From Lentzea indica (lineage in GTDB: Bacteria; Actinomycetota; Actinomycetes; Mycobacteriales; Pseudonocardiaceae), in assembly GCF_012184385.1 (NCBI RefSeq), contig NZ_VSRL01000083.1:1-32724 (forward strand): a DNA stretch of 32,724 nucleotides, given 5' to 3'. The stretch's first letter is position 1. Each line of letters begins with the position of its first letter. Below are positions 1-29,999 of this stretch, piece by piece. The notes under the pieces were generated by a model. It saw only the letters and a program-made list of their open reading frames with translations, was not told where the DNA came from and did no database searches. Both the position numbers and the translations under genes were made by a program.

Positions 1-1
1 C

Positions 2-700: not shown

Positions 701-706
701 GCGCTC

Positions 707-14114: not shown

Positions 14115-14208
14115 CGTCCCAGCATCACGTTCCGGTAACGGGGTGCAACGGTGTCCGGCATCCCGGCCACCCCTGAGCAGCACGATCGGCTGCTTGGGGG
14201 TTCAAGCT

Positions 14209-15420
14209 GTGCGTAAACAGGTCATCGGCGTACTTGTCGCCGTGTTGGTGGGCGCGGGAACGCTCCCTGCGGCGGCGCAGGACGGCGCCGAGGTCGAGAT
14301 CTTCTGGGACCGCAACCGTGACGGCGTGCGGCAGGACGACGAACCGCCGTATCGCCATGCGGGGTTCAGGGTCACCCAGCCGAACACCCAGGGCTATCCG
14401 GCGTACACCGACGACCACGGTGTGGCCAGGCTCGAGCCCGGCAGGTGGACGGTGATCTTCGACGACGAGAGGTTGCTGGTCACCACGACCGCGAGCGCGG
14501 TGGTCGACCCCGCAGAGGAGGACAGGCGGAAACTGCTGATCGGGGTGCACGGCGCGTCGATCTGCGGGACCGCCTGGCTCGACGAGAACGCCGACGGGCA
14601 GCGGCAGGACGGTGAGCGCCTGATCGGTGGGCACGAGATCCACATGGCACAACCCGGGCTTGTCGGGGGCGAGCGCAACGTGGTCACGGCCGACGACGGT
14701 TCGTACTGCTTCCTGGACGTGCCCGTCGGCGACTACCAGCTGACGTCCGCCGACCGCATGGGCGTCGACAAAACGACGTGGGGCGTCGCCCACTGGCGGT
14801 CCGATGACGCGGACGGTGACCAGGTGTCGAAGTTCGACGTGTCGGACGGCAAGTCCAAGACGTGGCACGTCGACACCCCGGTCACCGAGATCCGCGGGTT
14901 CGACACGGCGTTCGTCAAGACCTACGACAGGGACGGCCAGGCCCTGGAGATCACCGTCGTCAACTCCGACGGGTCGATCCACCCCCGCGAACTGCGGGTC
15001 GGTGAGCGGATCAAGGTCATCGGCCGATATCGGGTGTCAGGCACCGCTTACGACAGCTACAACGCGTCTCTCTTCCTCCCCGAAGGCTTGAGGGTCGTGG
15101 GAACCGAGGGCACACCGTCGAAGGTCGAGGACAGGCGAGTCGACGCCGGGTTTCCCGAACGCCGTGCTCCTGAGCAGGAGGAGCAGATCATCGTGGTCGC
15201 GGAGGTCGAGAAGGCTTTCGAGCACAGCGAGATCAGCCTCAGCAGCCTCGGCACGGACGCGAACACCCAGAACGACCGTGTCGCGGTGAAGATCCGGGCA
15301 CTCGCGGTGGATCCTGCGCGACAGCCTGCGACCTGGCGGTGGGACCTGGTGCTCGGGCTCGTCGTTGCTCTGGTGCTGGTGACGGCGTTCGTGGTCTGGC
15401 GGCGGAAGGTCGTGAAGTGA
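14209..15420 (+). CDS. Membrane-anchored surface protein with SdrD-B-like repeats (first of two paralogs)
   Basis: A 403-residue secreted protein starting at GTG 14209, behind a GGGGG purine run. It has a signal peptide (to about residue 24, PAAAQ) and two consecutive SdrD-B/prealbumin-like modules. Each opens with a calcium-loop-like stretch: FWDRNRDGVRQDDEP (32-46) and WLDENADGQRQDGE (123-136). A third beta domain with ITVVNSDGSIHPRELRVGERI and FLPEGLRVVG follows, then a C-terminal membrane helix with a basic tail (about 378-403). Cys119 and Cys167 in the second module may pair. There is no sortase motif. It overlaps the second paralog by GTGA, so the two are coupled. Function is unknown; the build suggests an extracellular stalk or adhesin, perhaps related to the adjacent kinase. 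Confidence 0.8.
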   Translation: MRKQVIGVLVAVLVGAGTLPAAAQDGAEVEIFWDRNRDGVRQDDEPPYRHAGFRVTQPNTQGYPAYTDDHGVARLEPGRWTVIFDDERLLVTTTASAVVDPAEEDRRKLLIGVHGASICGTAWLDENADGQRQDGERLIGGHEIHMAQPGLVGGERNVVTADDGSYCFLDVPVGDYQLTSADRMGVDKTTWGVAHWRSDDADGDQVSKFDVSDGKSKTWHVDTPVTEIRGFDTAFVKTYDRDGQALEITVVNSDGSIHPRELRVGERIKVIGRYRVSGTAYDSYNASLFLPEGLRVVGTEGTPSKVEDRRVDAGFPERRAPEQEEQIIVVAEVEKAFEHSEISLSSLGTDANTQNDRVAVKIRALAVDPARQPATWRWDLVLGLVVALVLVTAFVVWRRKVVK

Positions 15421-16594
15421 GGGCGCTGCTACTGGCCGTGTTGGTCGTGATCACGTGCACGCCCGTCGCGTTCGCGCAGGAGGGTGCCCTGGTCACCGTC
15501 TTCTGGGACCGCGACGGCAACGGAGTCCGCGGCGAGGGTGAGCCCGCCTACAAGCGCCCGGAGATCGCGATCCGGGACGACGCGGGGTTCGACGCCGTGG
15601 TGCGCGGCGGGGAGGACGGCACGTACCGGCTTCCGCACGCCGGCCGGTGGCAGGTCAGCCACGACGAGGACCCGTTCGTCACCACCACGCCGACGGTCGT
15701 CCAGTCCGACGGCCAGGACGTCGTCTTCGGGATTCGTGGCGCTTCGATCTGCGGCACGGTGTGGCTGGACGCCAACACCGACGGCAAGGTCGACGAGGCC
15801 GAGAGCCGCATCGCGGGACACCGGATCGCCGTGGAGCACTACCAGTGGGCGGACCGGGAGGCGACGACGGCACCGGACGGCACCTACTGCCTGCAGGATC
15901 TCCCGTCGGGAGCGCTCACACTGCAGTCCGGCGATCGCGGCGGCATCGACGGGACCGCCTGGGGCTACACCGCGCCCGACAACCCCATCATCAAGACGTC
16001 GTCGAAGTTCGACTGGACGTCCGGCCGGACGCGGCCGGTCCTCATCGAGCCCGGTGCGGAGATCACCGGCTACGACTCGGCGTTCGTCCAGCCGAAGGGC
16101 ATGGACGTGACTGCGCGAAGGGTCAGGATCGACAACGTCCGGTACGACGGCGTCCACGTCGGGATCGGCTCGATGTCATCTGCGAACACGAGGTGATGGG
16201 CAACGTCCCCGAAATGCACAGGGCCACCCTCACTTTGCCGGAGGGCCTGAAGATCCTGGAGACCCGGATCATTCGCGATGTTCCGGCGAAGGTGGACGGC
16301 CAACGTGTGGTGCGGGACAACCCCACGCACCTCGCGCCGCACGAGAAGTCGAACCTGATCGCGCATGTCGAGGTGGAGCGGGCGTTCGCCGGCGAGGAGA
16401 TCACTTGCGAGGCCCTTCCGGGGCCTCTCGGCGACAGCACCGCAGAGAACAACGTGGCCAGGCTGGAAATCGGTGCGACCAGTGGGGTTGGGAGCGGCAC
16501 GACGCCCATCTGGGGCGGTGTCCTCGCGGTACTGCTCGCGGGCGGGGGACTCTTCGTGGTGTGGCGGCGCCGGCGTCGCGCGTCACACCGCTGA
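15417..16594 (+). CDS. Membrane-anchored surface protein with SdrD-B-like repeats (second paralog, frameshifted)
   Basis: A paralog of the preceding protein with the same order of parts. It has a signal peptide (MRALLLAVLVVITCTPVAFA from GTG 15417), FWDRDGNGVRGEGEP, WLDANTDGKVDEAE with its cysteine pair (ASICGTVW and TYCLQDLP), the third beta domain, and a C-terminal membrane helix ending WRRRRRASHR. The frame breaks at about 16161-16164. One extra G in GTCGGGAT restores VGDRLDVICEHEVMGN, which aligns with VGERIKVIGRY of the first paralog. That alignment shows where the reading frame should run. Unbroken it would be about 392 residues. It is convergent with the LacI gene with only three bases between the stops. 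Confidence 0.75.
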
Positions 16595-16597
16595 TCT

Positions 16598-17608
16598 TCA
16601 CGCCGTGGACTCGCGCACGACCAATCGGCACGGCTGCCGCACGACACCGGTCGCCGGCCTGCCGTCGATCGCCGCGAACAGGTGCGTCACGGCGGTCGTG
16701 CCGAGCTGCTGGAGGTTGAGGTCGATCGTGGTCAGCGGCGGTTTGCAGTCCGCGGCGAAGATCTCCCAGTTGTCGTACCCGACGATCGCGACGTCGTCGG
16801 GTACGCGCCGGCCGAGGCCGGTGAGCGCCTGGGTGACGCCGCTCGCGATCTGGTCGTTGCCGCAGAAGATCGCGTCGACCTCGGGTGCGGTGGCGATCAG
16901 CAGGCGGGCGGCGTGCCGTCCCCAGCGTTGCGACCATTCGCCGTGCAGCGGCTGACCTCCGGCGAGTCGCAGGTCGTGTTCGGCCAGGACGGTGTGCACG
17001 GTGGCGGCGCGGTCGCGGGCGGCGCGGTAGGACTGCGGGCCGGTGATGTGGGCGATGTGCTTGCGGCGCAACGCGATCAGGTGCTCGATCGCCAGCCTGG
17101 CGCCACCCTCGTCGTCGGAGACCAGGCAGAGGTCGGCGGGGTTGGTCGACCGGCAGTACACGTACACCGCGGGCACAGGGATGTCCGCGGTCAGTGACGC
17201 GCGGACGTCGTTGCTGTCGCCCACGACGATGAACCCGTCGACCTGGCGGGCCAGCAGCGTGCGGATGTGGTGGTTGCGGCGGATCGCGTCGCCACGCGTG
17301 TCGCACAGCAGCACCGACATCTCCTGGTTCGACAGCGCGTTCTCGGCGCCGAGCAGGATCGGGATGGCGAAGCGGCCGTCGAACTCGTCGGTGAGCAGGC
17401 CGATCGCACGGGTGCGGCCGGCCACGAGGCCCTGCGCCAGGATGTTGGGCTGGAACGACAGCTCGGCCGCCGCCCGCAGCACCCGTGCCCTGGTGGCCGC
17501 GGCGACCTCGCCGCGGTCGTTGATCGCCTTGGACGCGGTGGCGATCGACACGCCCGCCCGCTTCGCCACGTCCCCCAGTGTCACCGTTTCCGACCGCCGT
17601 CTGCCCAT
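16598..17608 (-). CDS. LacI-family transcriptional regulator of the glycosidase operon
   Basis: A 336-residue regulator. The N-terminal helix-turn-helix is VTLGDVAKRAGVSIATASKAINDRGEV, with a hinge helix ILAQGLVAGRTRAIGLL. A periplasmic-binding-protein-like sensor domain follows (SVLLCDTRGD, HITGPQSYRAARDR, DAIFCGNDQIASGV, VGYDNWEIF). ATG 17608 is preceded by GAAAGG six bases upstream. It is divergent from an eight-gene operon for sugar uptake and hydrolysis, and inverted repeats of LacI type sit on both sides of the 105-base gap. The inducer is presumably an imported mono- or oligosaccharide; L-arabinose or an arabino-oligosaccharide is the inference from the enzymes. Confidence 0.92.
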   Translation of the reverse strand: MGRRRSETVTLGDVAKRAGVSIATASKAINDRGEVAAATRARVLRAAAELSFQPNILAQGLVAGRTRAIGLLTDEFDGRFAIPILLGAENALSNQEMSVLLCDTRGDAIRRNHHIRTLLARQVDGFIVVGDSNDVRASLTADIPVPAVYVYCRSTNPADLCLVSDDEGGARLAIEHLIALRRKHIAHITGPQSYRAARDRAATVHTVLAEHDLRLAGGQPLHGEWSQRWGRHAARLLIATAPEVDAIFCGNDQIASGVTQALTGLGRRVPDDVAIVGYDNWEIFAADCKPPLTTIDLNLQQLGTTAVTHLFAAIDGRPATGVVRQPCRLVVRESTA

Positions 17609-17621
17609 CGAAAACCTTTCG
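17609..17621. promoter_or_regulatory. LacI-type operator candidate next to the regulator start
   Basis: CGAAA-ACC-TTTCG is an inverted repeat immediately upstream of the regulator's ATG. It overlaps the self-complementary CTTTCGAAAG (17615-17624) and the regulator's ribosome site. Binding here could limit the regulator's own expression. Confidence 0.5.
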
Positions 17622-17672
17622 AAAGCAATTCGACTGCACGTTCGACAATTCCTGCTCCTGATGGCGCATTGT

Positions 17673-17686
17673 CGAAATCGTTTTCG
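17673..17686. promoter_or_regulatory. LacI-type operator candidate upstream of the glycosidase operon
   Basis: CGAAATCGTTTTCG matches the GAAA-N-CG-N-TTTC pattern with a central CG common to LacI/CcpA-family sites. It lies 27 bases before the ATG of the first operon gene, where it would block transcription. It shares the CGAAA/TTTCG arms with the site at 17609-17621. Confidence 0.6.
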
Positions 17687-17713
17687 GGCTCCAGAGTGCG
17701 TTGTGTGGCACAG

Positions 17714-19591
17714 ATGCGCAACACCCAGTCGATCCGCGGCCCGGTGGTCCCGTCCCGCGGACCGCTGCGTCCACTTGGGACGGACGAGGTGCGCATCACC
17801 GGTGGCTTCTGGGCGAAACGGCAACAGGTCAACGGCGAGGCGACGCTCGGCCACGCGCTGGCGTGGATGGACGAGCTCGGCTGGACCGGCAATTTCACCA
17901 CCGTCGCGAACGGTGCCGGATCGCCGGTGCGGAAGGGCCGGGAGTTCTCCGACTCCGAGGTCTACAAAATCGTCGAGGCGATGTCGTGGGAACACGGCAG
18001 GTCCGCGAACGACGACCTCAACGCTCGGATCGATGCGCTCACGTCCACGTTCGCCGCGGCCCAGGCCGGCGACGGCTACCTCAGCACGGCGTTCGGCAGG
18101 GACTGGCAGCGGCCGCGCTACCACGACCTGGCCTGGGGCCACGAGCTCTACTGCGTCGGGCACCTGCTGCAGGCCGCGGTCGCCAGGACGAGGACAGCGG
18201 GCGACGGGCCGTTGCTGGACGTCGCCCGCCGCGCCGCCGACCACGTCTGCGAGGTCTTCGGGCCTGGCAGCACGGGCGTCTGCGGGCATCCGGAGATCGA
18301 GACCGCGCTGGTGGAACTCGCCCGGCTGACGGGGGAGCAGCGCTACCTGGACCAGGCGGCGCTGTTCGTCGACCGGCGTGGTCACCGCAGCCTGCCTGCG
18401 CACGAGTTCGGGTGGTCCTACTTCAGCGACGACGTCCCGGTGCGCAAAGCGACAGTCCTGCGCGGGCACGCGGTGCGTGCGCTGTACCTGGCGTGCGGTG
18501 CCGTGGACGTCGCGGTCGAGACCGGCGACGACGACCTGCTGGACGCGGTGGCGGCGCAGTTCGACCGGACGTGGGCGCGGCGCACGCACATCACCGGCGG
18601 CATGGGGTCACGGCACCAGGACGAGGCCTTCGGCGACGACTTCGTGTTGCCGGCGGACCGGGCGTACGCAGAGACGTGCGCCGGTGTGGCCACGGTGATG
18701 CTCGCGCAACGACTGCTGCTCGCCACCGGCGACAGCCGTTACGCCGGTATCACGGATCGCGTGCTGCACAACGTGATCGCGACGGCGATCGGCGACGACG
18801 GCCGGAGTTTCTTCTACGCCAACACGTTGCACCAGCGCACTCCGGCGCGGCCCAACGACGACGGCGAGCGGCTCGACGTCGGTGGCGGGCTGCGGGCGCC
18901 GTGGTTCGAGGTGTCGTGCTGCCTGCCCAACATCGCCCGGCTGCTGGCGAGCCTCTCGTCCTACCTCGTCACCGCCGACGACACAGGGCTGCGCCTGCAC
19001 CAGTACGCCGACTGCGACGTCGAGACCCGGCTCGCCGACGGACGCCCTGTTGGCATCGAGGTGCGCACGTCGTACCCGGAGGGAGGAGACGTGGCCGTGC
19101 GGGTGACCAGGAGCGGCGCGCCCTGGTCGATCACCTTGCGCGTCCCCGACTGGGCGACCGGGGCGGTGCTCGACGTGGATCACCAGCGCCACCCGGTCGC
19201 ACCAGGAGACGTCGTCCTGACCAGGGAGTGGGCCGTGGGCCAGGAGATCCGGCTGGAACTGCCGATGCGGCCGAGGTTCATCCGGCCGGACCCGCGCATC
19301 GACGCCGTGCGCGGTTGCGTCGCCGTCGAACGCGGGCCGCTCGTGTTGTGCGCTGAGTCGTTGGGAGAGAACGACCTCGACGCGCTGCGGGTCTGCACCG
19401 GGCACGATCCGGAGCAGACAGGTGACGGCGCGGTGGTGCGGGCGCGGTTCGACGCCGCGCTGGACTCCTCGTGGCCGTACGGCGAACCGTCGGCCAGACC
19501 CGGCACTCCCGTCCCGCTGCACCTCACGCCCTACCACCGCTGGGCCCGCCGTGGCCCGTCCACCATGCGGGTCTGGCTTCCCACTGCCTGA
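17714..19591 (+). CDS. Cytoplasmic DUF1680/GH127-like beta-L-arabinofuranosidase
   Basis: A 625-residue (alpha/alpha)6-barrel glycosidase without a signal peptide. Family landmarks are GGFWAKRQQ, HDLAWGHELYCVGHL, RRTHITGGMGSRHQDEAFG, the E-x-C motif ETC (Glu320, Cys322) and the vicinal cysteines in FEVSCCLPNIARLL (Cys402, Cys403). In the Bifidobacterium enzyme HypBA1 the equivalent Glu and three Cys bind zinc, and one Cys is the nucleophile. All are kept here. The protein ends with a beta-sandwich (ITLRVPDWATGA). ATG 17714 lacks a strong ribosome site; GTG 17696 is an alternative. As the first operon gene it would release L-arabinose from oligosaccharides brought in by the ABC importer encoded next. 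Other DUF1680 specificities, such as RG-II sugars, remain possible. Confidence 0.88.
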   Translation: MRNTQSIRGPVVPSRGPLRPLGTDEVRITGGFWAKRQQVNGEATLGHALAWMDELGWTGNFTTVANGAGSPVRKGREFSDSEVYKIVEAMSWEHGRSANDDLNARIDALTSTFAAAQAGDGYLSTAFGRDWQRPRYHDLAWGHELYCVGHLLQAAVARTRTAGDGPLLDVARRAADHVCEVFGPGSTGVCGHPEIETALVELARLTGEQRYLDQAALFVDRRGHRSLPAHEFGWSYFSDDVPVRKATVLRGHAVRALYLACGAVDVAVETGDDDLLDAVAAQFDRTWARRTHITGGMGSRHQDEAFGDDFVLPADRAYAETCAGVATVMLAQRLLLATGDSRYAGITDRVLHNVIATAIGDDGRSFFYANTLHQRTPARPNDDGERLDVGGGLRAPWFEVSCCLPNIARLLASLSSYLVTADDTGLRLHQYADCDVETRLADGRPVGIEVRTSYPEGGDVAVRVTRSGAPWSITLRVPDWATGAVLDVDHQRHPVAPGDVVLTREWAVGQEIRLELPMRPRFIRPDPRIDAVRGCVAVERGPLVLCAESLGENDLDALRVCTGHDPEQTGDGAVVRARFDAALDSSWPYGEPSARPGTPVPLHLTPYHRWARRGPSTMRVWLPTA

Positions 19592-19630
19592 CCACATCCT
19601 GCCTGGCCACCACGTCTCAAAGGAGAGACC

Positions 19631-20875
19631 GTGAAAGCGAAGCTCGCGGCAGTCGCGCTGCTGCTGGCCACCGCGGCGTGCGGTGCGGACGAACCCGGCG
19701 CCGCCGACGACGGCGCGACCCTCACTCTGTGGACCCGCGCGGCGACCGAGGCGGTGTCCAAGGCCTACGCCGACGCCTACAACGCCTCCCACCGCAACAA
19801 GATCGAGGTCACCGCGTACCCCAACGAGGAATACCCGGCGAAGCTCGCCTCGGCCGCGGGCGCGAAGTCGTTGCCGGACCTCTTCGCCTCGGACGTGGTG
19901 TTCGCACCGCAGTACGCAGCGCAGGGCCTGTGGGCCGACGTCTCCGACCAGTTCAAGTCCTTGCCGTTCAAGGACTCCGTAGCCCCCTCCCACGTCCGTG
20001 CGGGCACGTGGGAGGGCCGCAACTTCGCGGTGCCGCACACGATCGACTTGTCGGTGCTGCTGTACAACAAGGACCTCTACGTCAAGGCCGGTCTCGATCC
20101 CGAGAAACCGCCGCGCACGCTGCGCGAGTTCGCCGAGCACGCCCGCAAGATCGACCAGCTCGGCGGGGACGTCAACGGCACGTACTTCGGCGGGAACTGC
20201 GGCGGGTGCGTGGAGTTCACGCTGTGGCCGTCGGTGTGGGCCGCGGGCGGTGAGGTGCTGGAGGCCGACGGTCGCAGCGCACGGGTCGACTCCCGCGAGA
20301 TGGCCGAGGTGTTCGCCCTGTACCGCGACCTGTACGACCAGGGCGTCGCGTCGCCCGCGTCCAAGGGTGAGGCGGGCCCGACGTGGCTCGGCGCGTTGCA
20401 GGGCGGGAAGGTCGGCATCGCCCCTGGGCCGTCGGTGTGGCTCGACGCCATCGAGGCCAAGGGCGTCAAGACCGGCATAGCGCCGATCCCCGGGATCAAC
20501 GGCGGCGAGTCCACGTTCGTCGGCGGTGACGCGATCGGCATCGGCGCCACGAGCGGGAAGACCCAGCAGGCGTGGGACTTCCTGGCATGGACGATGTCGG
20601 ACGAGGCCCAGGTCGAGGTGATCGCGAAACGCAAGGGCGTGCCGGTCCGCACCGACCTCGCCGCCAACAAGCACTCCTCGGCCGATCCACGGCTCGTCAC
20701 GGTGAACGGGTTGGTGGCCAAGGGAAAGACGCCGTACGCCCGCAACTTCAACGCCACGTTCAACGACCCGCAGGGGCCGTGGCTGACCACCGTTCGCGGC
20801 GCGCTGTTCGGCGACGCCACCGCTTCGCTCATGGCGGGCAACGAGGCGATCACCAAGTCGCTGCGGCAGGAGTGA
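19631..20875 (+). CDS. Sugar ABC transporter substrate-binding lipoprotein
   Basis: A 414-residue extracytoplasmic binding protein of the MalE/UgpB type. The N-terminus MKAKLAAVALLLATAAC is a lipoprotein signal with Cys17 as the lipidation site. Typical segments are LTLWTRAATEAVSKAYADAYN, LPDLFASDVVFAPQYA, HTIDLSVLLYNKDLY and GKVGIAPGPSVWL. The GTG at 19631 has an AAGGAGAG ribosome site. It is followed by two permease genes. In this operon it most likely captures arabinose-containing oligosaccharides released outside the cell by the secreted enzymes encoded downstream; the ligand is inferred. Confidence 0.92.
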   Translation: MKAKLAAVALLLATAACGADEPGAADDGATLTLWTRAATEAVSKAYADAYNASHRNKIEVTAYPNEEYPAKLASAAGAKSLPDLFASDVVFAPQYAAQGLWADVSDQFKSLPFKDSVAPSHVRAGTWEGRNFAVPHTIDLSVLLYNKDLYVKAGLDPEKPPRTLREFAEHARKIDQLGGDVNGTYFGGNCGGCVEFTLWPSVWAAGGEVLEADGRSARVDSREMAEVFALYRDLYDQGVASPASKGEAGPTWLGALQGGKVGIAPGPSVWLDAIEAKGVKTGIAPIPGINGGESTFVGGDAIGIGATSGKTQQAWDFLAWTMSDEAQVEVIAKRKGVPVRTDLAANKHSSADPRLVTVNGLVAKGKTPYARNFNATFNDPQGPWLTTVRGALFGDATASLMAGNEAITKSLRQE

Positions 20876-20878
20876 GCC

Positions 20879-21700
20879 GTGCGCAGGCGAGCGGTGTCCG
20901 GAGCCCTCTACGCCACACCCGCGGCGGTGCTGGTGGGGCTGTTCTTCGTGGTTCCGCTGCTGCTCGTCGTCTGGATGTCGCTGCACCGCTGGCCGTTGCT
21001 CGGCAAACCGAGGTTCAACGCCCCGGACAACTACACCGCCGTCGCGGATCACGCGTTGCTGAGCTCGGCGGCCTGGTTCACCGTCAGGTACACGGTGCTG
21101 ATCACCCTGTTGCTGTTCGTCGTCGCGTTCGGGCTCGCGTTGCTGGTGCAGAACCGCAGGCCGGGGGTCGGGTTCTTCCGCACCGCGTTCTTCCTGCCGA
21201 TGGCGGTCGGGTTCGCCAGCGCCTCGCTGCTGTTCCTCGGCCTGTTGAGCGAGGAGATCGGCCCGGTTCCGCTGACCGGGGACAGCCCGGCGCTGGGATC
21301 GGCCGTGCTGCTGGTGCTGTGGCGGTTCGCGGGCTTCAACATGCTGATCCTGCTGACGGGTCTGCAGGCCATCCCCGTCGACGTCTACGAGGCCGCGCGG
21401 ATCGACGGCGCGACCCGCTGGCAGATGTTCCGGCGGATCACCGTGCCGTTGATGCGTCCGACGATCGCGCTGGTGCTCACGATGATGATCACCGGGTCAC
21501 TGCTCGCGTTCGACCAGTTCTGGATCCTCACCAGGGGAGGCCCTGACAACAGCACCACGTCGCTGGTGATGGTGATCTACCGGGAGGCGTTCGTCCGGCT
21601 GGACCTCGGGTCGGCGGCGGGGATCTCGGTGGTGTTGCTGGTGCTGCTGGCCGTGGTCAGCTCGGTCCAGCTCGCCGTCCTGCGCAGGCGGTCGGCATGA
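20879..21700 (+). CDS. Sugar ABC transporter permease, MalF type
   Basis: A 273-residue inner-membrane permease with six predicted spans. The EAA loop that contacts the ATPase reads YEAARIDGATRWQMFRRITVPLMRPT. It starts at GTG 20879, three bases after the binding-protein gene, and overlaps the second permease by four bases. It forms the channel together with that second permease. Confidence 0.92.
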   Translation: MRRRAVSGALYATPAAVLVGLFFVVPLLLVVWMSLHRWPLLGKPRFNAPDNYTAVADHALLSSAAWFTVRYTVLITLLLFVVAFGLALLVQNRRPGVGFFRTAFFLPMAVGFASASLLFLGLLSEEIGPVPLTGDSPALGSAVLLVLWRFAGFNMLILLTGLQAIPVDVYEAARIDGATRWQMFRRITVPLMRPTIALVLTMMITGSLLAFDQFWILTRGGPDNSTTSLVMVIYREAFVRLDLGSAAGISVVLLVLLAVVSSVQLAVLRRRSA

Positions 21701-22488
21701 GCAGATGGAGCTACTACGTCACCGGGACCGCGCTCGCGATCCTGTTCCTGTTCCCGCTGGTGTGGAGCGGATGGGCGTCGGTGCGCACGGACACCGGGTT
21801 CGGTGCGGAGAACTACGCGCGGCTCTTCAGCTCCGCCAACGGGATCCGTGCGGTGCACGTGCTCAACAGTCTCATCGTCAGCGCGCTGACCGTGACCGGC
21901 ACGCTGATCGTGGCGACGCTCGCGGGTTATGCGTTCGGCCGGTTCCGCTTTCCCGGCCGTGACGTGCTCTTCCTGCTGACGCTCGCGATCCTGATGGTCC
22001 CGTACGCCACGATCCTGATCGCGCTGTACGTGCTGCTCGGCTGGCTGGGGCTGCAGGACTCGCTGGTCGGCCTCAGCCTCGTGCTGATCGTCTTCCAGCT
22101 GCCGTTCTCGGTCTTCATGATGCGCAACAGCTTCGAGGCCGTGCCGATCGAACTGGAGGAGTCCGCGCGCGTCGACGGGTGCTCGAGCTTCGGCACGCTG
22201 GTGCGGATCATGCTGCCCGCCGTGCGGCCCGGTCTGGTCACCGTGGGGCTGTTCGCGTTTCTCACGTCGTGGAGCGAGTTCTTCGCCCCGTTGATCCTGC
22301 TCAACTCCACCGGCAAGTTCACCGCGATCCTGGCCGTGGTCAACATGCGCACCGCGAGCCACGGCTCGATCGACTACGCGGCGCTGGAGGCGGGCGTCGT
22401 GTTCATGGCGGTGCCCTGCCTGGTGCTCTTCGCGTTCATGCAACGCAGCTACGTCCGAGGGTTCACCTCGGGTGCCCTGAAAGGCTGA
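21697..22488 (+). CDS. Sugar ABC transporter permease, MalG type
   Basis: A 263-residue permease with six spans and the EAA loop LEESARVDGCSSFGTLVRIMLPAVRPG. Its ATG overlaps the stop of the first permease (ATGA). No ATP-binding subunit is encoded in this operon or anywhere in the window. Many actinomycete sugar importers share one ATPase (MsiK) encoded elsewhere, which is the probable partner. Confidence 0.92.
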   Translation: MSRWSYYVTGTALAILFLFPLVWSGWASVRTDTGFGAENYARLFSSANGIRAVHVLNSLIVSALTVTGTLIVATLAGYAFGRFRFPGRDVLFLLTLAILMVPYATILIALYVLLGWLGLQDSLVGLSLVLIVFQLPFSVFMMRNSFEAVPIELEESARVDGCSSFGTLVRIMLPAVRPGLVTVGLFAFLTSWSEFFAPLILLNSTGKFTAILAVVNMRTASHGSIDYAALEAGVVFMAVPCLVLFAFMQRSYVRGFTSGALKG

Positions 22489-22498
22489 GGAGGTCGGC

Positions 22499-23323
22499 AT
22501 GACCCGATTGTGGAAAGGATTCGTGGCCGCGCTTTTCGCGGCGGTGATGACGGCGAGCGTGGCGTCTCCGGCGAGAGCGGACCACGGATGGACACCGCCG
22601 GCGAACCTGGTGACCCCGCTGAACCAGGTGTGGCAGCACGTGGAGAGCACCTACGGGAACCTCTACGGCTTCCGCAACTACGGATGGGACCAGATCTTCA
22701 CCAACGGCGGCTACCTGAACTTCTGCGTGCGCTGGGACTCCCCGGCGTCGGTGACCGCGGCCCAGCGCGACGCGATCCACGCCCAGCTCGCCCGCCAGTA
22801 CAAGAAGTGGATGGACGCGATGGCGGGCCACAACCACTTCCCGTACGCGTCCGTGCCGATCAAGGTCGTCGGCTGGGCGGTGCGCGACCGCAACCAGTTG
22901 CAGTGGAACGACAACTCGGTCGACATCTACGTCAATGACATCCGCGAGAACGCGCCGCAGTGCTCGGAAGGCTGCGGAAGGTTCTTCAACCGCAACGGCA
23001 CCTATCCGCGTTGTCCAGGTGGCATCGCGCGGCACTACGACCAGTCGCTCTGGCTGACGGCGGGCTTCGGCGGCGGGCATGGCGGTGACTGGGGCCAGCG
23101 GATGGGCAGCGAGTACTTCATGGGCCAGCTCAACGCTTCCGATGTGACGATCCTGCTGCACGAGATAGGCCACACCTTCGGCCTGGACGACTTCTACGAC
23201 TGGACGCCCAGCGGAGTCGACAGGTTCATCATGAAGGCGGGCAGCTCCGCGGTGATCACCGAGTTCGACAGGTGGATGCTGCGCGACTTCTGGCGGCACC
23301 TGAAGAACCGTTACGGGTTCTAG
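22499..23323 (+). CDS. Secreted zinc metallopeptidase (HExxHxxGxxD type)
   Basis: A 274-residue secreted protein with a signal peptide (MTRLWKGFVAALFAAVMTASVASPARA). The zinc motif HEIGHTFGLDD gives His221, Glu222, His225 and Asp231 as ligands and catalytic residue. This is the HExxHxxGxxD form seen in snapalysin-like and related small metzincins. A methionine at 245 (FIMKAGS) fits the Met-turn. Other marked segments are NFCVRWDSP, RHYDQSLWLTAGFGGGHGGDWGQR and a C-terminal WMLRDFWRHLKNRYGF. Cysteines at CSEGCGRFF and RCPGG may form disulfides. A GAGGAGG ribosome site precedes ATG 22499. It lies between the importer and the secreted glycosidases in the same operon, so it probably acts on the same substrate, which argues for a glycoprotein. 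The peptide specificity is unknown. Confidence 0.82.
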   Translation: MTRLWKGFVAALFAAVMTASVASPARADHGWTPPANLVTPLNQVWQHVESTYGNLYGFRNYGWDQIFTNGGYLNFCVRWDSPASVTAAQRDAIHAQLARQYKKWMDAMAGHNHFPYASVPIKVVGWAVRDRNQLQWNDNSVDIYVNDIRENAPQCSEGCGRFFNRNGTYPRCPGGIARHYDQSLWLTAGFGGGHGGDWGQRMGSEYFMGQLNASDVTILLHEIGHTFGLDDFYDWTPSGVDRFIMKAGSSAVITEFDRWMLRDFWRHLKNRYGF

Positions 23324-23325
23324 TG

Positions 23326-25758
23326 ATGAACCTCCCTTCTCGACGCACTGTGTTGCGTGCGGGCGCGTTCGCCGCTGCGGCGGCGGCGCTGCCCGCACGC
23401 GCGCTCGCCGCGGCACGTCCCGACATCGGGGTGTCTGCCGAGCTGTTCCCGCTCGGTTCGGTGTCCCTGCTGCCCGGTCCGTTCCGCGACAACACCCTCC
23501 GCACCCACACCTACCTCAAGTTCCTCGACCCCGAACGCCTGCTGCACACGTTCCGGCTCAACGTCGGGCTGAACTCCACCGCCGTCCCTTGTGGAGGATG
23601 GGAGTCGCCCTCGACCGAACTGCGCGGGCACTCCACCGGGCACGTGCTCACAGCGCTGGCCCAGGCGTACGCGAGCACCGGCGACACCGCGTTCAGGACC
23701 AAGGGCGACCACCTCGTCGCCCAACTGGCGATCTGCCAGGACCGGGCCGCGACGGCGGGCTTCACCACCGGCTACCTCTCGGCGTTCCCGGAGAGCTTCA
23801 TCGCCAGAGTCGAGACCGGCCAGCAGGTGTGGGCGCCCTACTACACCCTGCACAAGATCCTCGCCGGGCTGCTGGACATGCACCTGCTGGCGGGCAACGC
23901 CCAGGCGCTCACCGTGCTGACCCGCATGGCGGCCTGGGCGGGGGCGCGCAACGGAAGGCTGACCTACGCCCAACGCCAGAGCATGCTGCGCACGGAGTTC
24001 GGCGGCATGAACGAGGTGCTCGCCAACCTCTACCAGCTCAGCGGCGACCAGGCGCACCTCACCACGGCCCAGTACTTCGACCACGCGGAGATCTTCGACC
24101 CGCTGGCGCAGAACCGCGACGCGTTGAACGGCTACCACGCCAACACGCAGATCCCGAAGGCGATCGGGGCGATCCGCGAGTACCACGCCACGGGCACGAC
24201 CAGGTACCGCGACATCGCCGGCAATTTCTGGGAGTTCGTCGTCGGCGCGCACAGCTATGCGATCGGTGGCAACTCGAACGGCGAGTACTTCAAGGCACCG
24301 GGCCGGATCGCGTCCGAACTGTCGGACAACACCTGCGAGTCCTGCAACTCCTACAACATGCTGAAGCTCACCGCGCAGTTGTTCCGCACCAACCCTGGTG
24401 ACGCGCGGTACTTCGACTTCTACGAGAAGACGCTCTACAACCATCTGCTGGGCGCCCAGAACCCGAACTCCAGCCACGGCCACCACAGCTACTACACGCC
24501 GTTGCGGCCCGGTGGCATCCGCACGTACAGCAACGACTACAACGACTTCACCTGCTGTCACGGCACCGGCATGGAGACCAACACCTGCCACACGGGCCGC
24601 ATCTACGCCCACTCCGGCACGGCGCTGTATGTCAACCTGTTCATCGCCTCAACTGTGAACTGGCGTGGTTTCACCGTGCGACAAGACACCTCGTTCCCGG
24701 AGACCGCGGCCACGAAGCTGACGATCACCGGCTCCGGTACGTTCGAGCTGCGTGTGCGCGTCCCCACTTGGGCCACGGGGGCGCAGATCCGCGTCAACGG
24801 AACACCGCAGGCGTCGGTCACGCCGGGTTCGTACGCCCGGATCAACCGAACCTGGTCGAGCGGTGACGTCGTGGAGATCAGTCTGCCGATGGCGTTGCAC
24901 CGCGAGTCCACACCGGACAACCGCGCGGTGCAGGCGGTCCGCCACGGGCCGATCGTGCTGGCCGGTGCGTACGGCACGAACAACCTGCAGTCGATGCCCG
25001 TGCTGCAACCGTCGTCCATTCAGCCCACCTCGACGCCGTTGCAGTACACGGCTTCCGCGAGCACCGGCCTGGTGACGTTGTTGCCGTTCTACAAGATCTA
25101 CGGGCAGCGCTACACCGTCTACTGGACCGTCGCCTCAGAGCCGCCACCGTTCATCGCCCATTATCCGTTCGACGGCAACGCGAACGACGCCACGGGCAAC
25201 GGCCTGACCGCCACGCTCGCGGGCGGTGCGGCGTGGACGACCGGCCGGAGCGGGGGAGCGGTCGACCTGTCCGGTTCCGGCGCGCACGTCGTGTTGCCCT
25301 CGGGGCTGCTCGCCGGCGCGATGGCGTTCACCGTGGCGACCTGGGTGCGGCTGGACACCGTGACGACCTGGTCGCGGGTGTTCGACTTCGGGTCCGGCAC
25401 GGGGGCCTACGCCTTCCTGACCCCGCGCAGTTCGGCGGGCGGCACCCGGTTCGCGATCACCACCAACGGTGCCGGCGCGGAGCAGCAGATCAACGCACCG
25501 GCGGCGCTTCCGCAGGGCGTGTGGACACACGTTGCCGTGACGCAGAACGGTGACCTCGGTGTCCTGTACGTCAACGGTCTTGAGGTCGCCCGCAACTCGG
25601 CACTCACGTTGCGGGCCGGCAGCACCACGCAGAACTGGATCGGCCGCTCCCAGTACGCGAACGACCCGAATCTCGACGGCGCCGTGGACTCCTTCCGGGT
25701 CTACGGCCGCGCCCTCACCGCCGCAGAGGTCGCGAACCTCCACTCCACCGGTACATAA
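23326..25758 (+). CDS. Tat-exported DUF1680 (GH127/GH146-like) glycosidase with a C-terminal LamG-like module
   Basis: An 810-residue exported enzyme. The N-terminus SRRTVLRAGAFAAAAAALPARALA is a twin-arginine signal. The barrel has LLHTFRLNVGL, GGWESPSTELRGHSTGHVLTAL, VWAPYYTLHKILAGLLD and GGMNEVLANLY. The zinc-site residues are all present: ESC (Glu338, Cys340) and TCCHGTGMETN (Cys410, Cys411). A beta-sandwich follows, and from about residue 608 a LamG/concanavalin-like module (HYPFDGNANDATGNG, then VATWVRL, then VDSFRVYGRALTAAEVANLH). Tat export suits a metal-loaded, pre-folded enzyme. I placed the start at ATG 23326, two bases after the protease stop, because the Tat signal begins there. 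It would trim terminal beta-L-arabinofuranose from polymers outside the cell. Confidence 0.9.
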   Translation: MNLPSRRTVLRAGAFAAAAAALPARALAAARPDIGVSAELFPLGSVSLLPGPFRDNTLRTHTYLKFLDPERLLHTFRLNVGLNSTAVPCGGWESPSTELRGHSTGHVLTALAQAYASTGDTAFRTKGDHLVAQLAICQDRAATAGFTTGYLSAFPESFIARVETGQQVWAPYYTLHKILAGLLDMHLLAGNAQALTVLTRMAAWAGARNGRLTYAQRQSMLRTEFGGMNEVLANLYQLSGDQAHLTTAQYFDHAEIFDPLAQNRDALNGYHANTQIPKAIGAIREYHATGTTRYRDIAGNFWEFVVGAHSYAIGGNSNGEYFKAPGRIASELSDNTCESCNSYNMLKLTAQLFRTNPGDARYFDFYEKTLYNHLLGAQNPNSSHGHHSYYTPLRPGGIRTYSNDYNDFTCCHGTGMETNTCHTGRIYAHSGTALYVNLFIASTVNWRGFTVRQDTSFPETAATKLTITGSGTFELRVRVPTWATGAQIRVNGTPQASVTPGSYARINRTWSSGDVVEISLPMALHRESTPDNRAVQAVRHGPIVLAGAYGTNNLQSMPVLQPSSIQPTSTPLQYTASASTGLVTLLPFYKIYGQRYTVYWTVASEPPPFIAHYPFDGNANDATGNGLTATLAGGAAWTTGRSGGAVDLSGSGAHVVLPSGLLAGAMAFTVATWVRLDTVTTWSRVFDFGSGTGAYAFLTPRSSAGGTRFAITTNGAGAEQQINAPAALPQGVWTHVAVTQNGDLGVLYVNGLEVARNSALTLRAGSTTQNWIGRSQYANDPNLDGAVDSFRVYGRALTAAEVANLHSTGT

Positions 25759-25767
25759 GGAGAATCG

Positions 25768-27168
25768 ATGCGCGCCACCCTGCTGGGCGCCGCAATCGCA
25801 CTCGTAGCGGGCGTGGCCGTGGCCATGCCCGCGAGCGCGGCGAACCCGATCATCACCTCGGTCTACACCGCCGACCCGGCGCCGCTGGTCGTCGGCAACA
25901 CCATGTACGTCTACGCCGGACGGGACGAAGCCGCGTCCGGCCAGCAGAACTTCCTCATGCGCGAGTGGCGCGTGCTGTCGTCGACCGACGCCGCCTCCTG
26001 GACCGACCACGGTGCCAAGGCGAACATCGGCACGTTCCGCTGGGTCGGCGCGGACGCCTGGGCCAGTGAGGTCGAGCCCCGCAACGGCAAGTACTACTGG
26101 TACACCTCGGTCAACGGCAACGGCCCCGGCTGGATGGACATAGGTGTGGCGGTGGGCGACAGCCCGCTCGGGCCGTTCGCCGACGCCAAGGGCGGCCCGC
26201 TCATCAGCGACAGCACGCCGAACTCGTCCGGGCTCAACATCGACCCGACGGTCTTCACCGACGACGACGGCCAGGCCTACCTGTACTGGGGCAGCTACTG
26301 GGGTGCGCGGGCGGCGAAGCTCAAGCCGAACATGATCGAACTGGACGGACCCGTCGTGACGCCTCAAGGCCTCGCGAACTTCTGGGAAGCGCCGTTCATG
26401 TTCAAGCGCAACGGCCTCTACTACATGATCTACGCGGCCAACGACACGAACGGCTGCGTCACGTCGTCGAGCTACGCCTGCCAGCGCTACGCCACCGCCA
26501 CCAGCCCGATGGGGCCGTGGACGCACCGCGGCGTGGTTCTCGGCCAGGTCTCGTCGACGACGAACCACGCGGGTGTCGTGCAGTTCAACGGCCAGTGGTA
26601 CATGGTCTACCACAACGCCCAGGCACCCGGCGGCGGCAACTTCCGCCGATCCGTGGCCGTGGACCTGTTGCACTTCAACGCAGACGGCACCATGCAGCGG
26701 GTAGTCCAGACGGTTGCCGGTCCGCCGCCGAATCCAGGTGGCAGTGGCAACGTCGCTTTGACCGCCACCGCGAGCACGTCGTACGTGTCGCCGTGGGAGA
26801 ACCTCGCCGCGGTCAACAACGGCGCTACACCAACGAGTTCGGCGGACCGCTCGAACCTCGTCTACGGCAACTGGCCGGAGCAGGGCACGCAGTGGCTCGA
26901 GTACACCTGGCCGTCCGCGAGATCGATCAACCGCACGGCCGTCTACTGGTTCGACGACGACCAGGGCATCGACCTGCCCGCCTCGTGCCGCTTGCAGTAC
27001 TGGACCGGCAGCGCCTACGCCGACCTGCCCGGCCAGTTCGCGACAGCGGCGAACACGTTCAACACCATCACGTTCCCCACCGTGTCCACGACCCGGTTGC
27101 GGTTGAACATCACCGCGAAGACCGGCCTCTCGACGGGAGTCCTGGAATGGCAAGCCTTCGCCGCCTGA
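25768..27168 (+). CDS. Secreted GH43-family glycosidase with a C-terminal beta-sandwich module
   Basis: A 466-residue secreted enzyme with a signal peptide to about residue 25 (ASAAN). The five-bladed propeller residues are recognisable: the base in TADPAPLV (Asp36), the pKa-modulating acid in NIDPTVFTDDDG (Asp159) and the proton donor in WEAPFMFKRNGLYYM (Glu207). From about residue 335 an F5/8-type-C-like carbohydrate-binding module begins (NVALTATASTSYVSPWENL to LEWQAFAA). AAGGAG lies upstream of ATG 25768. GH43 enzymes are mostly alpha-L-arabinofuranosidases, beta-xylosidases or arabinanases; operon context favours an arabinofuranosidase. Subfamily cannot be set by eye. The last 22 bases overlap the next gene. 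Confidence 0.9.
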   Translation: MRATLLGAAIALVAGVAVAMPASAANPIITSVYTADPAPLVVGNTMYVYAGRDEAASGQQNFLMREWRVLSSTDAASWTDHGAKANIGTFRWVGADAWASEVEPRNGKYYWYTSVNGNGPGWMDIGVAVGDSPLGPFADAKGGPLISDSTPNSSGLNIDPTVFTDDDGQAYLYWGSYWGARAAKLKPNMIELDGPVVTPQGLANFWEAPFMFKRNGLYYMIYAANDTNGCVTSSSYACQRYATATSPMGPWTHRGVVLGQVSSTTNHAGVVQFNGQWYMVYHNAQAPGGGNFRRSVAVDLLHFNADGTMQRVVQTVAGPPPNPGGSGNVALTATASTSYVSPWENLAAVNNGATPTSSADRSNLVYGNWPEQGTQWLEYTWPSARSINRTAVYWFDDDQGIDLPASCRLQYWTGSAYADLPGQFATAANTFNTITFPTVSTTRLRLNITAKTGLSTGVLEWQAFAA

Positions 27169-29954
27169 CGGCACCCGCGCTGGCCGTGGTGCTGGTCGCC
27201 GCCGGACTCGGTCCCGCGTCGGCCGCGCAGACCATCGGTTATCCGGCGTTCACCGGCCCGTCCATCCCCGCCCCTCCTGCGGGTTACAGCACCGGCAGCA
27301 CCATGCGTGCCATCTACGACGCGGAGAGCGCCGGTACCGACTTCTGGATGGACCGGCTGCTCGCTCGCCCTGGCAATGACCCGGCCGGCAACTTCCTGAT
27401 GACGCGCGGCCGCGGGTTGTTCATGTACACCCACAACCCCGGCGTGATCGGGTTCGGCGGCAGATCCGCCTACTGGGACGACATCAGCGGCCAGAACGCC
27501 TACTCGATCGCCGTGTCGCCCGGCTCGTTCACCGAGCAGGTGAGCAGCAGGGTGCAGAAACCGAGCCACTACCGGGGCGTCTTCACCAGCGGCTCGATCC
27601 GGGTCGAGATGACGAAGTTCATCACCCACAACAACGTGGCTGTGACGAACCTGGCGCTCGTGAACACCGGCGGCTCGCCGTCGACGCTGCAGCTGCGCGC
27701 CACCTCGCCGTACGCGACCACCGCGAGCGGGAGCGAGCTGACCGGCAGCCGGCCGGTGAAGAACAACCTCACCACGATCAGGCCGCGCCTGGCGGGTGAC
27801 GGCTTCAGCGTGGGCAACGGCGGCCTGGACCGCGCGATCACCGTGGGCGCCGGCCAGACCGTCACGACCAAGGTGGTCATGGGCTTCCCGACCACCGAGA
27901 TCCCGGAGTCGTCGACCGAGTACCAGTCGTACCGCGGCTACTCGCCTTCGACGGCGTTCGCCACCCACGTGCAGGCGTACAACCGTTGGTGGGCCGACAA
28001 CATCCCGTACATCGACGTGCCCGACGCCGCGATCAAGAAGAACATCTACTACCGGTGGTGGCTGATGCGCTTCAACCACCTCGACGTCGACATCCCCGGC
28101 CAGGACTACCAGTTCCCGACCTCGATCGAGGGCGTCACCGGCTACAACAACGCGATCGTGCTGACCCAGCCGATGCACATCGACGACCTCAAGTACCTGC
28201 GCGATCCCGTCTACTCCTACGGACCATGGCTCTCGATCGGCCAGACGTCGCGCGGCGGCCGTTTCATGGACAACCCCGGCGACCCGGAGAACTGGTCCAA
28301 CTCCTACACCCAGTACGTCTCCGAAGCCGCGTGGCGCAGCTACCAGGTCCACGGCGGCCAGCCCTCCATCGCGGCGCTGCTGGCCCGTTACGCGGAAGGC
28401 GATGCCAAGGGCCAACTGTCCTATTACGACACGAACAACAACGGTGTGATCGAGTACGACTGGGGTGCCCTCACCGGCAATGATGCCGACGCGGTGTCGT
28501 TCGACTGGCGTCCGGGCCGCCTCGACCGTGCGGAGACCGCCTACGTGTGGAGCGGAGCCGTTGCCGCTCAACAGGCCTACACGCTGGCCGGCAACACCGC
28601 GAAGGCCGCCGAGATGCAGGCGCTCGCCGACCGCATCCGTTCCGGCGTGATCAACACCTTGTGGAACCCGTCCCGGCAACTGCTCGAACACAAGCACGTC
28701 GCCACCAACGCGCACGTCCCGTGGAAGGAGATCAACAATTACTACCCGTTCTCGGTCGGCCTGATGCCGAACACCGACCAGTACAAGCAGGCGCTGCGAC
28801 TCTTCGCCCAGCCGTCCGAGTACCCGGTGTTCCCCTTCTACACCGCGAACCAGAAGGACAAGGCGGAGGCGGCCGCGGCCGGTCACCCCGGCTCCAACAA
28901 CTTCTCCACAATCAACTCGACCGTGCAGTTCCGCCTGTACTCGTCGGTGCTGCGCAACTACCCGAACCAGTGGATGACCGCGGAGGACTACAAGAAGCTG
29001 CTGTACTGGAACGCCTGGGCGCAGTACATCGGCGGCAACACCCAATGGCCCGACGCCAACGAGTTCTGGGCCGACTGGAACGGCAGCACGATCCAGTACC
29101 GCTCGTGGATCCACCACAACATCCTCGGCAGCAGCAACTGGACCGTCATCGAGGACGCCGCCGGCCTGCGTCCGCGTGCCGACGGCCTGATCGAGCTCTC
29201 ACCGATCAACATCGGCTGGTCGCACTTCGCCGTCAACAACGTGCGCCACCGCAACGCCGACCTGAGCGTCGTGTGGGACGACCCGTCCGACGGAGTGACC
29301 CGCTACAACGGCGTCCCGCAGGGATATTCGGTCTATCTCAACGGAACCCGCGCCTTCACCGTGGACCGGCTCACCCGCGTGCTCTACGACCCGGCCACCG
29401 GATCCGTCACCCTGCCGTCCGGCGGCTCCGTGGTGCACCAAACCTCTGTGCCCGGCGTGCGCGCGCCACGTGACGTCGTTCAGAACAGCGCCCGCGTGGT
29501 CGACGTGTTCGCCAAGGCAGGCGTCGACCTGACCTCCACCCGCCCGAACCTGGCCCAGGGCGCGTCGGCGTCCTACACGGCGCCCGGTACCTCGGTCGCC
29601 GCCGCGGTGGACGGCTTCCCGATCAACGAACCGATCTGGGGCACCGCCGGCTCACCCAACGCGACTGACTGGTACGAACTGAACTTCGGTCAGCAGCGCC
29701 CGGTCGGCGAGGTCCGGCTGTACTTCCGCGACGACCGCGCGGGCAACCGCTACCGGGCGCCGTCGTCGTACCAGGTCCAGTACTGGAACGGCAGCGGATG
29801 GGCCGACGTGGCAGGGCAGACCAGAACACCGGCCTCGCCTCGCGCCAACTACAACCTCGTCAAGTTCACCCCTGTGAGCACCCAACGGCTGCGGGTGCTC
29901 ATGACCCATGCCGGCGGGTTCCGCACCGGTCTCACGGAGATCAAGGCCCATTGA
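27147..29954 (+). CDS. Secreted MGH1-like (alpha/alpha)6-barrel glycosidase with an F5/8-type-C module
   Basis: A 935-residue secreted protein. ATG 27147 lies inside the end of the GH43 gene and has GGGAG seven bases upstream. The signal peptide is MASLRRLTAPALAVVLVAAG and on to ASA. After an N-terminal beta region, the catalytic barrel has KKNIYYRWWLMRFNH, QDYQFPTSIEGVTGYN, DPENWSNSYTQYVSEAAW, GVIEYDWG, INNYYPFSVGLMP and DANEFWADWNG. These resemble the mannosylglycerate-hydrolase-like/GH63 clan of helical barrels. From about residue 800 a galactose-binding-like F5/8 type C module follows (NLAQGASASYTA to GLTEIKAH). The substrate is unknown. By analogy with the Bifidobacterium hydroxyproline-arabinoside system, a role like the GH121 beta-L-arabinobiosidase is a possible inference only. 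Confidence 0.82.
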   Translation: MASLRRLTAPALAVVLVAAGLGPASAAQTIGYPAFTGPSIPAPPAGYSTGSTMRAIYDAESAGTDFWMDRLLARPGNDPAGNFLMTRGRGLFMYTHNPGVIGFGGRSAYWDDISGQNAYSIAVSPGSFTEQVSSRVQKPSHYRGVFTSGSIRVEMTKFITHNNVAVTNLALVNTGGSPSTLQLRATSPYATTASGSELTGSRPVKNNLTTIRPRLAGDGFSVGNGGLDRAITVGAGQTVTTKVVMGFPTTEIPESSTEYQSYRGYSPSTAFATHVQAYNRWWADNIPYIDVPDAAIKKNIYYRWWLMRFNHLDVDIPGQDYQFPTSIEGVTGYNNAIVLTQPMHIDDLKYLRDPVYSYGPWLSIGQTSRGGRFMDNPGDPENWSNSYTQYVSEAAWRSYQVHGGQPSIAALLARYAEGDAKGQLSYYDTNNNGVIEYDWGALTGNDADAVSFDWRPGRLDRAETAYVWSGAVAAQQAYTLAGNTAKAAEMQALADRIRSGVINTLWNPSRQLLEHKHVATNAHVPWKEINNYYPFSVGLMPNTDQYKQALRLFAQPSEYPVFPFYTANQKDKAEAAAAGHPGSNNFSTINSTVQFRLYSSVLRNYPNQWMTAEDYKKLLYWNAWAQYIGGNTQWPDANEFWADWNGSTIQYRSWIHHNILGSSNWTVIEDAAGLRPRADGLIELSPINIGWSHFAVNNVRHRNADLSVVWDDPSDGVTRYNGVPQGYSVYLNGTRAFTVDRLTRVLYDPATGSVTLPSGGSVVHQTSVPGVRAPRDVVQNSARVVDVFAKAGVDLTSTRPNLAQGASASYTAPGTSVAAAVDGFPINEPIWGTAGSPNATDWYELNFGQQRPVGEVRLYFRDDRAGNRYRAPSSYQVQYWNGSGWADVAGQTRTPASPRANYNLVKFTPVSTQRLRVLMTHAGGFRTGLTEIKAH

Positions 29955-29955
29955 C

Positions 29956-29999
29956 GTGATGGACGACAGTCGTCCTCGGATCGGCTGTCGTTACATCAC
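29956..29999 (+). terminator. Hairpin terminator after the glycosidase operon
   Basis: Directly after the last glycosidase stop, GTGATG and ACGACAG (29956-29969) pair with CTGTCGT and CATCAC (29985-29999). This gives 13 base pairs with a small asymmetric bulge and a 15-base loop. The following CCGTTT is only a weak T-run, as is common in GC-rich actinobacteria. Confidence 0.6.

Follow-up and report, generated by a model that had tools for sequence, protein, structure and literature searches.

A LacI-linked operon of Lentzea indica predicted to act on hydroxyproline-linked arabinosides, with a conserved metallopeptidase-like gene

A 32,724-nucleotide stretch of the Lentzea indica genome (NZ_VSRL01000083.1 of assembly GCF_012184385.1, forward strand; below, the window), one contig of a 9.97-Mb draft in 634 contigs, carries an operon of eight genes divergent from a LacI-family regulator gene. 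The operon probably serves the degradation of the arabinosides of plant hydroxyproline-rich glycoproteins (HRGPs) and counts among the members of its regulon a secreted metallopeptidase-like protein, here called MP. The combined results support a regulon that attacks both the glycan and the backbone of cell-wall glycoproteins. Membership of MP in this regulon is well supported, and its specialization as an HRGP peptidase is a tentative suggestion. Extensins, which bear such arabinosides, are rigid, cross-linked wall proteins that the arabinosides are held to protect.

Organization of the operon

The eight genes lie on the plus strand at 17714-29954, follow one another with short gaps or overlaps, and are divergent from lacI at 16598-17608 on the minus strand; the lacI body sits just outside the range 17609-29999 singled out in the initial annotation. 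They are intact, unlike some neighbouring genes of the window that are seemingly split over frames. The features are as follows (GH, glycoside hydrolase family; aa, amino acids).

16598-17608, minus strand: LacI-family regulator, 336 aa; Pfam LacI, Peripla_BP_3 and Peripla_BP_1 above cut-off
17608-17622: operator candidate O1, TCGAAA-N3-TTTCGA, an inverted repeat that abuts the lacI start codon
17673-17686: operator candidate O2, CGAAA-N4-TTTCG, upstream of the GH127 gene, backed by conservation
17714-19591, plus strand: GH127 beta-L-arabinofuranosidase-like protein; Pfam GH127 catalytic, M and C domains above cut-off
19631-20875, plus strand: extracellular solute-binding (lipo)protein; Pfam SBP_bac_8 and SBP_bac_1, lipobox by eye
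20879-21700, plus strand: ABC sugar permease A; Pfam BPD_transp_1
21697-22488, plus strand: ABC sugar permease B; Pfam BPD_transp_1
22499-23323, plus strand: MP, secreted, metallopeptidase-like; HEIGHTFGLDD (H221, E222, H225, D231) and M245
23326-25758, plus strand: GH146-like beta-L-arabinofuranosidase (Pfam); C-terminal Laminin_G_3 (LamG) domain, twin-arginine signal by eye
25768-27168, plus strand: secreted GH43 with a C-terminal discoidin-like region; Pfam GH43 above cut-off, F5/8 and DUF7402 below cut-off
27147-29954, plus strand: secreted GH121 beta-L-arabinobiosidase homologue with an F5/8 type C module; NCBIfam HypBA2, PDB 6m5a
29956-29999, plus strand: terminal hairpin; fold energy against shuffles

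Signal peptides were assigned by eye, not by a predictor: they are Sec-like in MP, GH43 and GH121, lipoprotein-like in the binding protein and of the twin-arginine type in GH146, and none was recognised in this way in GH127. Behind the last stop codon, a 61-nucleotide stretch folds into a hairpin of -29.6 kcal/mol (z -4.08), a stability that none of 200 shuffles equalled. The hairpin is not followed by a T-run and was missed by a consensus terminator scan; the corresponding promoter scan found no promoters. The eight linked genes and the hairpin of the initial annotation are thus all present.

The importer comprises a binding protein and two permeases, and an ATPase of its own is not among the operon genes. 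A MalK-type ATPase gene elsewhere in the genome (L157), which has no permease gene beside it in the stretch examined, could serve this importer. The genome also holds one L-arabinose isomerase gene, whose neighbours appear kinase-like and epimerase-like by eye.

Predicted glycosidases and their substrate

The last enzyme of the operon, initially described as an MGH1-like glycosidase, is by sequence a homologue of the GH121 beta-L-arabinobiosidase HypBA2. It scored 816.6 bits (E 4.6e-245) with the NCBIfam HypBA2 model, which requires 3200 for a full-length equivalog, and matched PDB entry 6m5a with an E of 7.3e-191. Its residues E328, D446 and E639 align with the essential HypBA2 acids E383, D515 and E713, by a chain numbering offset of 31 derived by hand. 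A weak local match (E 7.1e-18) links it to 5mqr, a GH142 structure (PMC7263609). The GH121 enzymes tested, HypBA2 and XeHypBA2, release beta-Ara2 only from Ara3-Hyp, the triarabinoside of hydroxyproline (Hyp) (PMC6085000).

The GH127 protein retains the zinc-cysteine and sugar-contact residues of HypBA1 (H142, Y145, H194, R273, E322, E338, C340, C417 and C418 align), with the zinc-cysteine positions falling on E320, C322, C402 and C403 of the window protein. Its scores (311 bits for 6ex6, 306 for 4qjy, 249.7 for HypBA1, and 308.8 for the aceric-acid-hydrolase model, whose cut-off is 950) fail to separate an arabinofuranosidase from an aceric acid hydrolase. We take 6ex6 to be BT1003, the aceric acid hydrolase of rhamnogalacturonan II (RG-II). 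GH43 has its best PDB match in 3qed (E 3.6e-79), presumably an arabinan-specific arabinofuranosidase, with xylosidases next. The GH146-like enzyme matched 5opj best, with 342.7 bits versus 62.1-72 bits for 4qjy, 5mqo and 6ex6, and keeps the zinc-cysteine motif (E338, C340, C410, C411). Another PF07944 gene of the genome (G000:C21:11207-12376, L002) is 52% identical to it over 487 residues. The 5opj structure is that of the GH146 enzyme BT0349 from a locus for rhamnogalacturonan I (RG-I), and the GH146 members that act on HRGPs, XeHypBA1 and Bll4HypBA1, attack the arabinofuranose (Araf) joined to Hyp (PMC10850190).

From these families and the enzymes studied in them, the operon therefore holds a candidate enzyme for every linkage in the tetraarabinoside Ara4-Hyp, together with an importer and an intracellular GH127. 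Hyp-linked arabinosides, as in extensins, are the best candidate substrate because a GH121 member is present, and for the same reason RG-II and arabinan, initially named as the main alternatives, are retained at lower likelihood. That the operon is directed at the arabinan side chains of RG-I, or at RG-II, instead of HRGPs would agree with the nearest relatives of three of its enzymes, namely BT0349 for GH146, 3qed for GH43 and 6ex6 for GH127. We nevertheless regard this as improbable, given the Ara3-Hyp specificity of the tested GH121 members, the lack of any polysaccharide lyase, GH137 or GH142 call by Pfam or NCBIfam in the eight proteins despite the weak match of GH121 to 5mqr, and the presence of a peptidase-like gene, which suits a glycoprotein substrate. 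Degradation of the D-arabinan of mycobacterial walls was rejected: GH183, GH172 and GH116 are the families of D-arabinan systems, and neither Pfam nor NCBIfam returned a hit to any of the three.

Distribution and neighbourhood of MP and GH121

In a scan of named genomes, 297 MP relatives were detected; the loci analysed are those of the 80 best. Neighbouring genes were called within about 10 kb by a home-made codon-usage caller trained on the window genes; some loci end at contig edges, and the weakest matches counted as GH127 and GH43 have about 40% and 36% identity, respectively. Among the 80 loci, GH121 and GH43 were each found near MP in 38, GH127 in 32, LacI (at least 45% identity) in 32 and GH146 in 27; at least one of GH127, GH146 and GH121 was present in 45. 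All eight operon genes occur together in 18 of the 80, and because of this the cluster is considered conserved and a chance neighbourhood is ruled out. MP lies on the same strand as GH121 in 35 of the 38 GH121 loci, most often three genes away (25 loci), otherwise adjacent (5), two (5), four (1) or six (2) steps distant. A shorter module, MP-(GH146)-GH43-GH121, recurs, for example in Actinoplanes and Plantactinospora. By their names, the organisms span Pseudonocardiaceae, Micromonosporaceae and Streptosporangiaceae.

The two genes also tend to occur in the same genomes. Of 298 genomes sampled from the order, 17 contain MP and 29 a GH121 match, 21 of them above 500 bits (full scores were computed for two candidates in each genome). 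MP and a GH121 above 500 bits occur together in thirteen genomes (Fisher p 2.4e-14, uncorrected for kinship), and four (G219, G070, G201, G275) have MP without such a GH121. With GH121 above 1000 bits, 12 of 14 genomes contain MP (Fisher p 6.7e-16, again uncorrected for kinship). A phylum-wide sample of 396 genomes contained MP only once, in the genome of the window itself, and GH121 in three, numbers too small for statistics.

Outside Actinomycetota, two Herpetosiphon loci (L072, L082) contain MP relatives of about 70% identity. At these loci, which were not gene-called, tblastn with the operon proteins matched MP alone; the relative in L072 carries a family 2 carbohydrate-binding module (CBM2) above the Pfam cut-off.

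The LacI regulator and its operators

Related loci likewise have divergent LacI orthologues in front of the operon. In the 26 regions upstream of LacI orthologues, window included, CGAAA-N4-TTTCG is present in 24 and CGAAA-N3-TTTCG in 17, so that the regulator with paired operators proposed in the initial annotation is present and the putative operators are supported by conservation. The 80 loci (1,516,446 bases) contain 49 CGAAA-N4-TTTCG sites, compared with 0.28 expected from base composition, none for the reversed pattern and 0-2 in ten Markov simulations. No fewer than 44 of the 49 sites lie at most 400 bp upstream of a gene of the operon families, 23 of them upstream of MP. The other five include one (L050) within an over-long GH127 call and two in front of a distant LacI-like gene. 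This second LacI-like gene (32% identity) lies between MP and the LacI orthologue, with the operator at 10796 in L066 and at 11670 in L070, hinting at cross-control of regulators. Even where no GH127, GH146 or GH121 gene is nearby, MP has a CGAAA site at most 700 bp upstream in 6 of 35 loci, against a chance expectation of about 0.005.

A second palindrome, TTAGCGCTAA, has eight occurrences in the 80 loci, five preceding GH43 and three preceding MP, in loci from Herbidospora, Nonomuraea and Streptosporangium. Five Markov simulations gave 0, 0, 1, 0 and 0 such sites and the reversed pattern none. By its positions, this palindrome plays the part of a predicted operator in Nonomuraea and its relatives. 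Thus, two different operators link MP with GH43 and GH121.

Sequence features and modelled fold of MP

MP comprises 274 aa and carries HExxHxxGxxD with a downstream Met, which conforms to the metzincin signature (HExxHxxGxxH/D plus a downstream Met). The motif HEIGHTFGLDD and the Met are invariant in alignments of 17, 26 and 47 sequences; alignments A2 and A3 drew on 25 and 46 of the 80 named loci, respectively, and L113 was omitted from A3 owing to a stop in the stretch. Locus L113 has tandem MP copies, the stretch of one of which contains a stop codon. In L029, a second protein (10562-11641) with a CBM2 and a weak reprolysin/M6 match adjoins MP.

Similarity to M6-type and reprolysin-type metallopeptidases is weak and extends over the active-site stretch. 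The M6 domain model TIGR03296 matched MP with E 2.9e-4, below its cut-off, and Reprolysin_5 reached at best E 3.1e-4 in an MP relative. Two AlphaFold2 models have mean pLDDT values of 72.5 and 74.6; the first suggests a metzincin fold, with all 50 matches listed being metzincins, albeit weak ones (best E 0.019), and the second, with mixed matches, does not confirm this fold. MP appears, by sequence, to lie outside the families of the libraries searched, and its peptidase activity is predicted from HEIGHTFGLDD and the gene context. The initial annotation had included an added protease: the gene proved conserved and apparently co-regulated, and the term protease still draws on this motif and context.

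MP might alternatively be a non-peptidase whose zincin-like motif belongs to a binding protein or to an enzyme of another kind. This would explain why it stays below all Pfam and NCBIfam cut-offs and has no PDB match even by profile, and why its second model is not metzincin-like. The invariance of the motif and Met in all three alignments and the weak metzincin matches of the first model speak against it, and we consider it quite improbable.

Some MP relatives carry additional modules. With home-made hidden Markov models (HMMs), CBM2 was detected on 15 of the 80 MP open frames, a discoidin-like module on 27 and neither on 35, with three frames cut; the discoidin-like count rests on an HMM of four sequences. 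Six discoidin-like relatives compared with Pfam gave F5/8 below cut-off in four, only DUF7402 below cut-off in one and nothing in one; L033, outside the 80, exceeded one F5/8 cut-off. The CBM2 is N-terminal and exceeded the Pfam cut-off in 6 of 7 relatives of one scan and 3 of 10 of another. Cellulose binding by these relatives would fit action on plant wall material.

A further alternative keeps HRGP arabinosides as the substrate of the operon but sees in MP a general peptidase for plant walls or nutrition, which responds to the same inducer and has another target than these glycoproteins. Such a role would account for the 35 loci of the 80 without nearby GH127, GH146 or GH121, twelve of which have a CBM2 by the home-made HMM, and for the MP of the window, which is without an evident glycan-recognition module. 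It is less easily reconciled with the two different operators that tie MP to arabinosidase genes and with the position of MP inside the operon in the 18 loci with all eight genes, and we consider it rather unlikely, though a serious alternative.

Proposed mechanism

In the mechanism proposed here, LacI would repress transcription at the two CGAAA/TTTCG operators, located by conservation, until an arabinose-derived ligand is bound. Secreted GH43, by analogy with HypAA, would trim the terminal alpha-L-Araf of Ara4-Hyp; secreted GH121, as its family and catalytic residues suggest, would free beta-Ara2 from Ara3-Hyp; and secreted GH146 would take the last Araf off Hyp in the manner of XeHypBA1 and Bll4HypBA1. 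The binding protein and permeases, powered by an ATPase from another locus, would take up the disaccharide, and GH127 would cleave it in the cytoplasm to L-arabinose, for which the genome has arabinose-catabolic genes elsewhere. Secreted MP may cut the glycoprotein backbone, either after deglycosylation or as a glycopeptidase.

Several observations weigh against this proposal. The GH127 protein scores higher to 6ex6 and the aceric-acid-hydrolase model than to HypBA1, the closest structures to GH43 are 3qed and, after it, xylosidases, and the enzyme activities are predictions. GH127, GH146 and GH121 are all out of reach in 35 of the 80 MP loci, 29 of which also have no CGAAA site near MP; 8 of the 21 GH121 genomes of the order, and two of the three in the phylum sample, are without MP. 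In the whole genome of the window, the 10-base operator core has four sites, equal to its reversed control, and the neighbours of the three other sites do not belong to the arabinoside set; one site precedes an oxidoreductase-like and a binding-protein-like gene. As to MP itself, no Pfam or NCBIfam cut-off was passed, PDB searches by sequence or by profile gave no match, the second model retrieved mixed folds (best E 0.43, ADAMTS4), and the window protein has neither a CBM nor a discoidin-like module.

With these points taken into account, an HRGP-arabinoside operon with MP in its regulon is still the probable reading. It is also possible, though we put it forward with reserve, that secreted zinc peptidases specialized for arabinosylated HRGPs form a new family, with MP as its founder. 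Its members may be glycopeptidases that recognise Hyp-arabinosides, some tethered to cellulose by CBM2, and would be wired through at least two LacI-type operators into the extensin-degradation regulons of soil actinomycetes, which would use extensin for sugar and amino acids. If so, a single inducible operon, with a candidate for each arabinose bond and a dedicated peptidase, would represent a testable route of extensin turnover in soil, provide enzymes for the analysis of plant glycoproteins, and give a function to a peptidase-like family for which the searched libraries yielded no match above a curated cut-off. Through the shared operators, this assignment can be tested directly.

Other genes of the window

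The plus strand at 14017-16594 encodes, in tandem, a pair of secreted-looking proteins that have SdrD B-like domains. The second seems to stop at 16196, and its likely C-terminal part continues in another frame to 16594; this break appears to be a frameshift or an assembly error. A regulator with an AAA_16 domain (1-2761, plus strand) and, by eye, an amidohydrolase-like gene (5466-6863, minus strand) each seem to be spread over two frames, which may reflect sequencing error, given the 634-contig draft.

Comparison with known systems

The closest parallel is the HypAA-HypBA2-HypBA1 system of Bifidobacterium longum, with which the operon shares an extracellular GH121, a GH43, a cytoplasmic GH127, an ABC importer and a LacI-family regulator (PMC7263609, PMC5928203). 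The B. longum regulator is the LacI-type BauR1 (BL0426; PMC5928203), to which the LacI described here is likened by role alone. The initial view of an actinomycete counterpart of the Bifidobacterium beta-L-arabinofuranoside system, with importer and LacI control, is supported. The different enzyme families that it had invoked were not borne out: HypBA1 itself belongs to GH127 and HypBA2 to GH121, the GH43 is a candidate for the HypAA slot, and GH146 is a family of HRGP enzymes. GH121 is shorter here (935 aa versus 1943 aa) and shows no FIVAR-membrane anchor, and the operon goes beyond the B. longum set with a secreted GH146 and a metallopeptidase-like gene.

Xanthomonas euvesicatoria has the same secreted set acting on Ara4-Hyp, consisting of XeHypBA1 (GH146), XeHypBA2 (GH121) and XeHypAA (GH43); the set is described as being under HrpX control in an organism that does not use L-arabinose, whereas LacI is found here (PMC6085000). 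Next to xehypAA lies a frameshifted gene for a putative prolyl oligopeptidase, suggested to act on HRGPs, and the authors expected that proteases could degrade HRGPs once these were deglycosylated; they also name Streptosporangium, Actinosynnema and Micromonospora as having HypBA2/HypAA homologues (PMC6085000). The peptidase gene is thus of a different kind and frameshifted in X. euvesicatoria, and metzincin-like, intact and conserved in many genomes here.

Svx of Pectobacterium atrosepticum is a secreted gluzincin that was shown to cleave extensin (PMC13164431, PMC9266454) and requires a domain recognising extensin arabinans (PMC13164431). As described, it has HEXXH-X22-E (gluzincin class HEXXH-X(8,28)-E) and an acyltransferase-like domain, in contrast to MP with HExxHxxGxxD and no such Pfam domain. 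Titles and abstract openings in the literature searched gave no description of a Hyp-arabinoside operon with a metallopeptidase, which does not establish its absence from print. Given the Xanthomonas and Svx precedents, the idea that glycosidases and a peptidase act jointly on extensin is not new; what is new is the conserved, co-regulated metzincin-like gene in actinomycetes.

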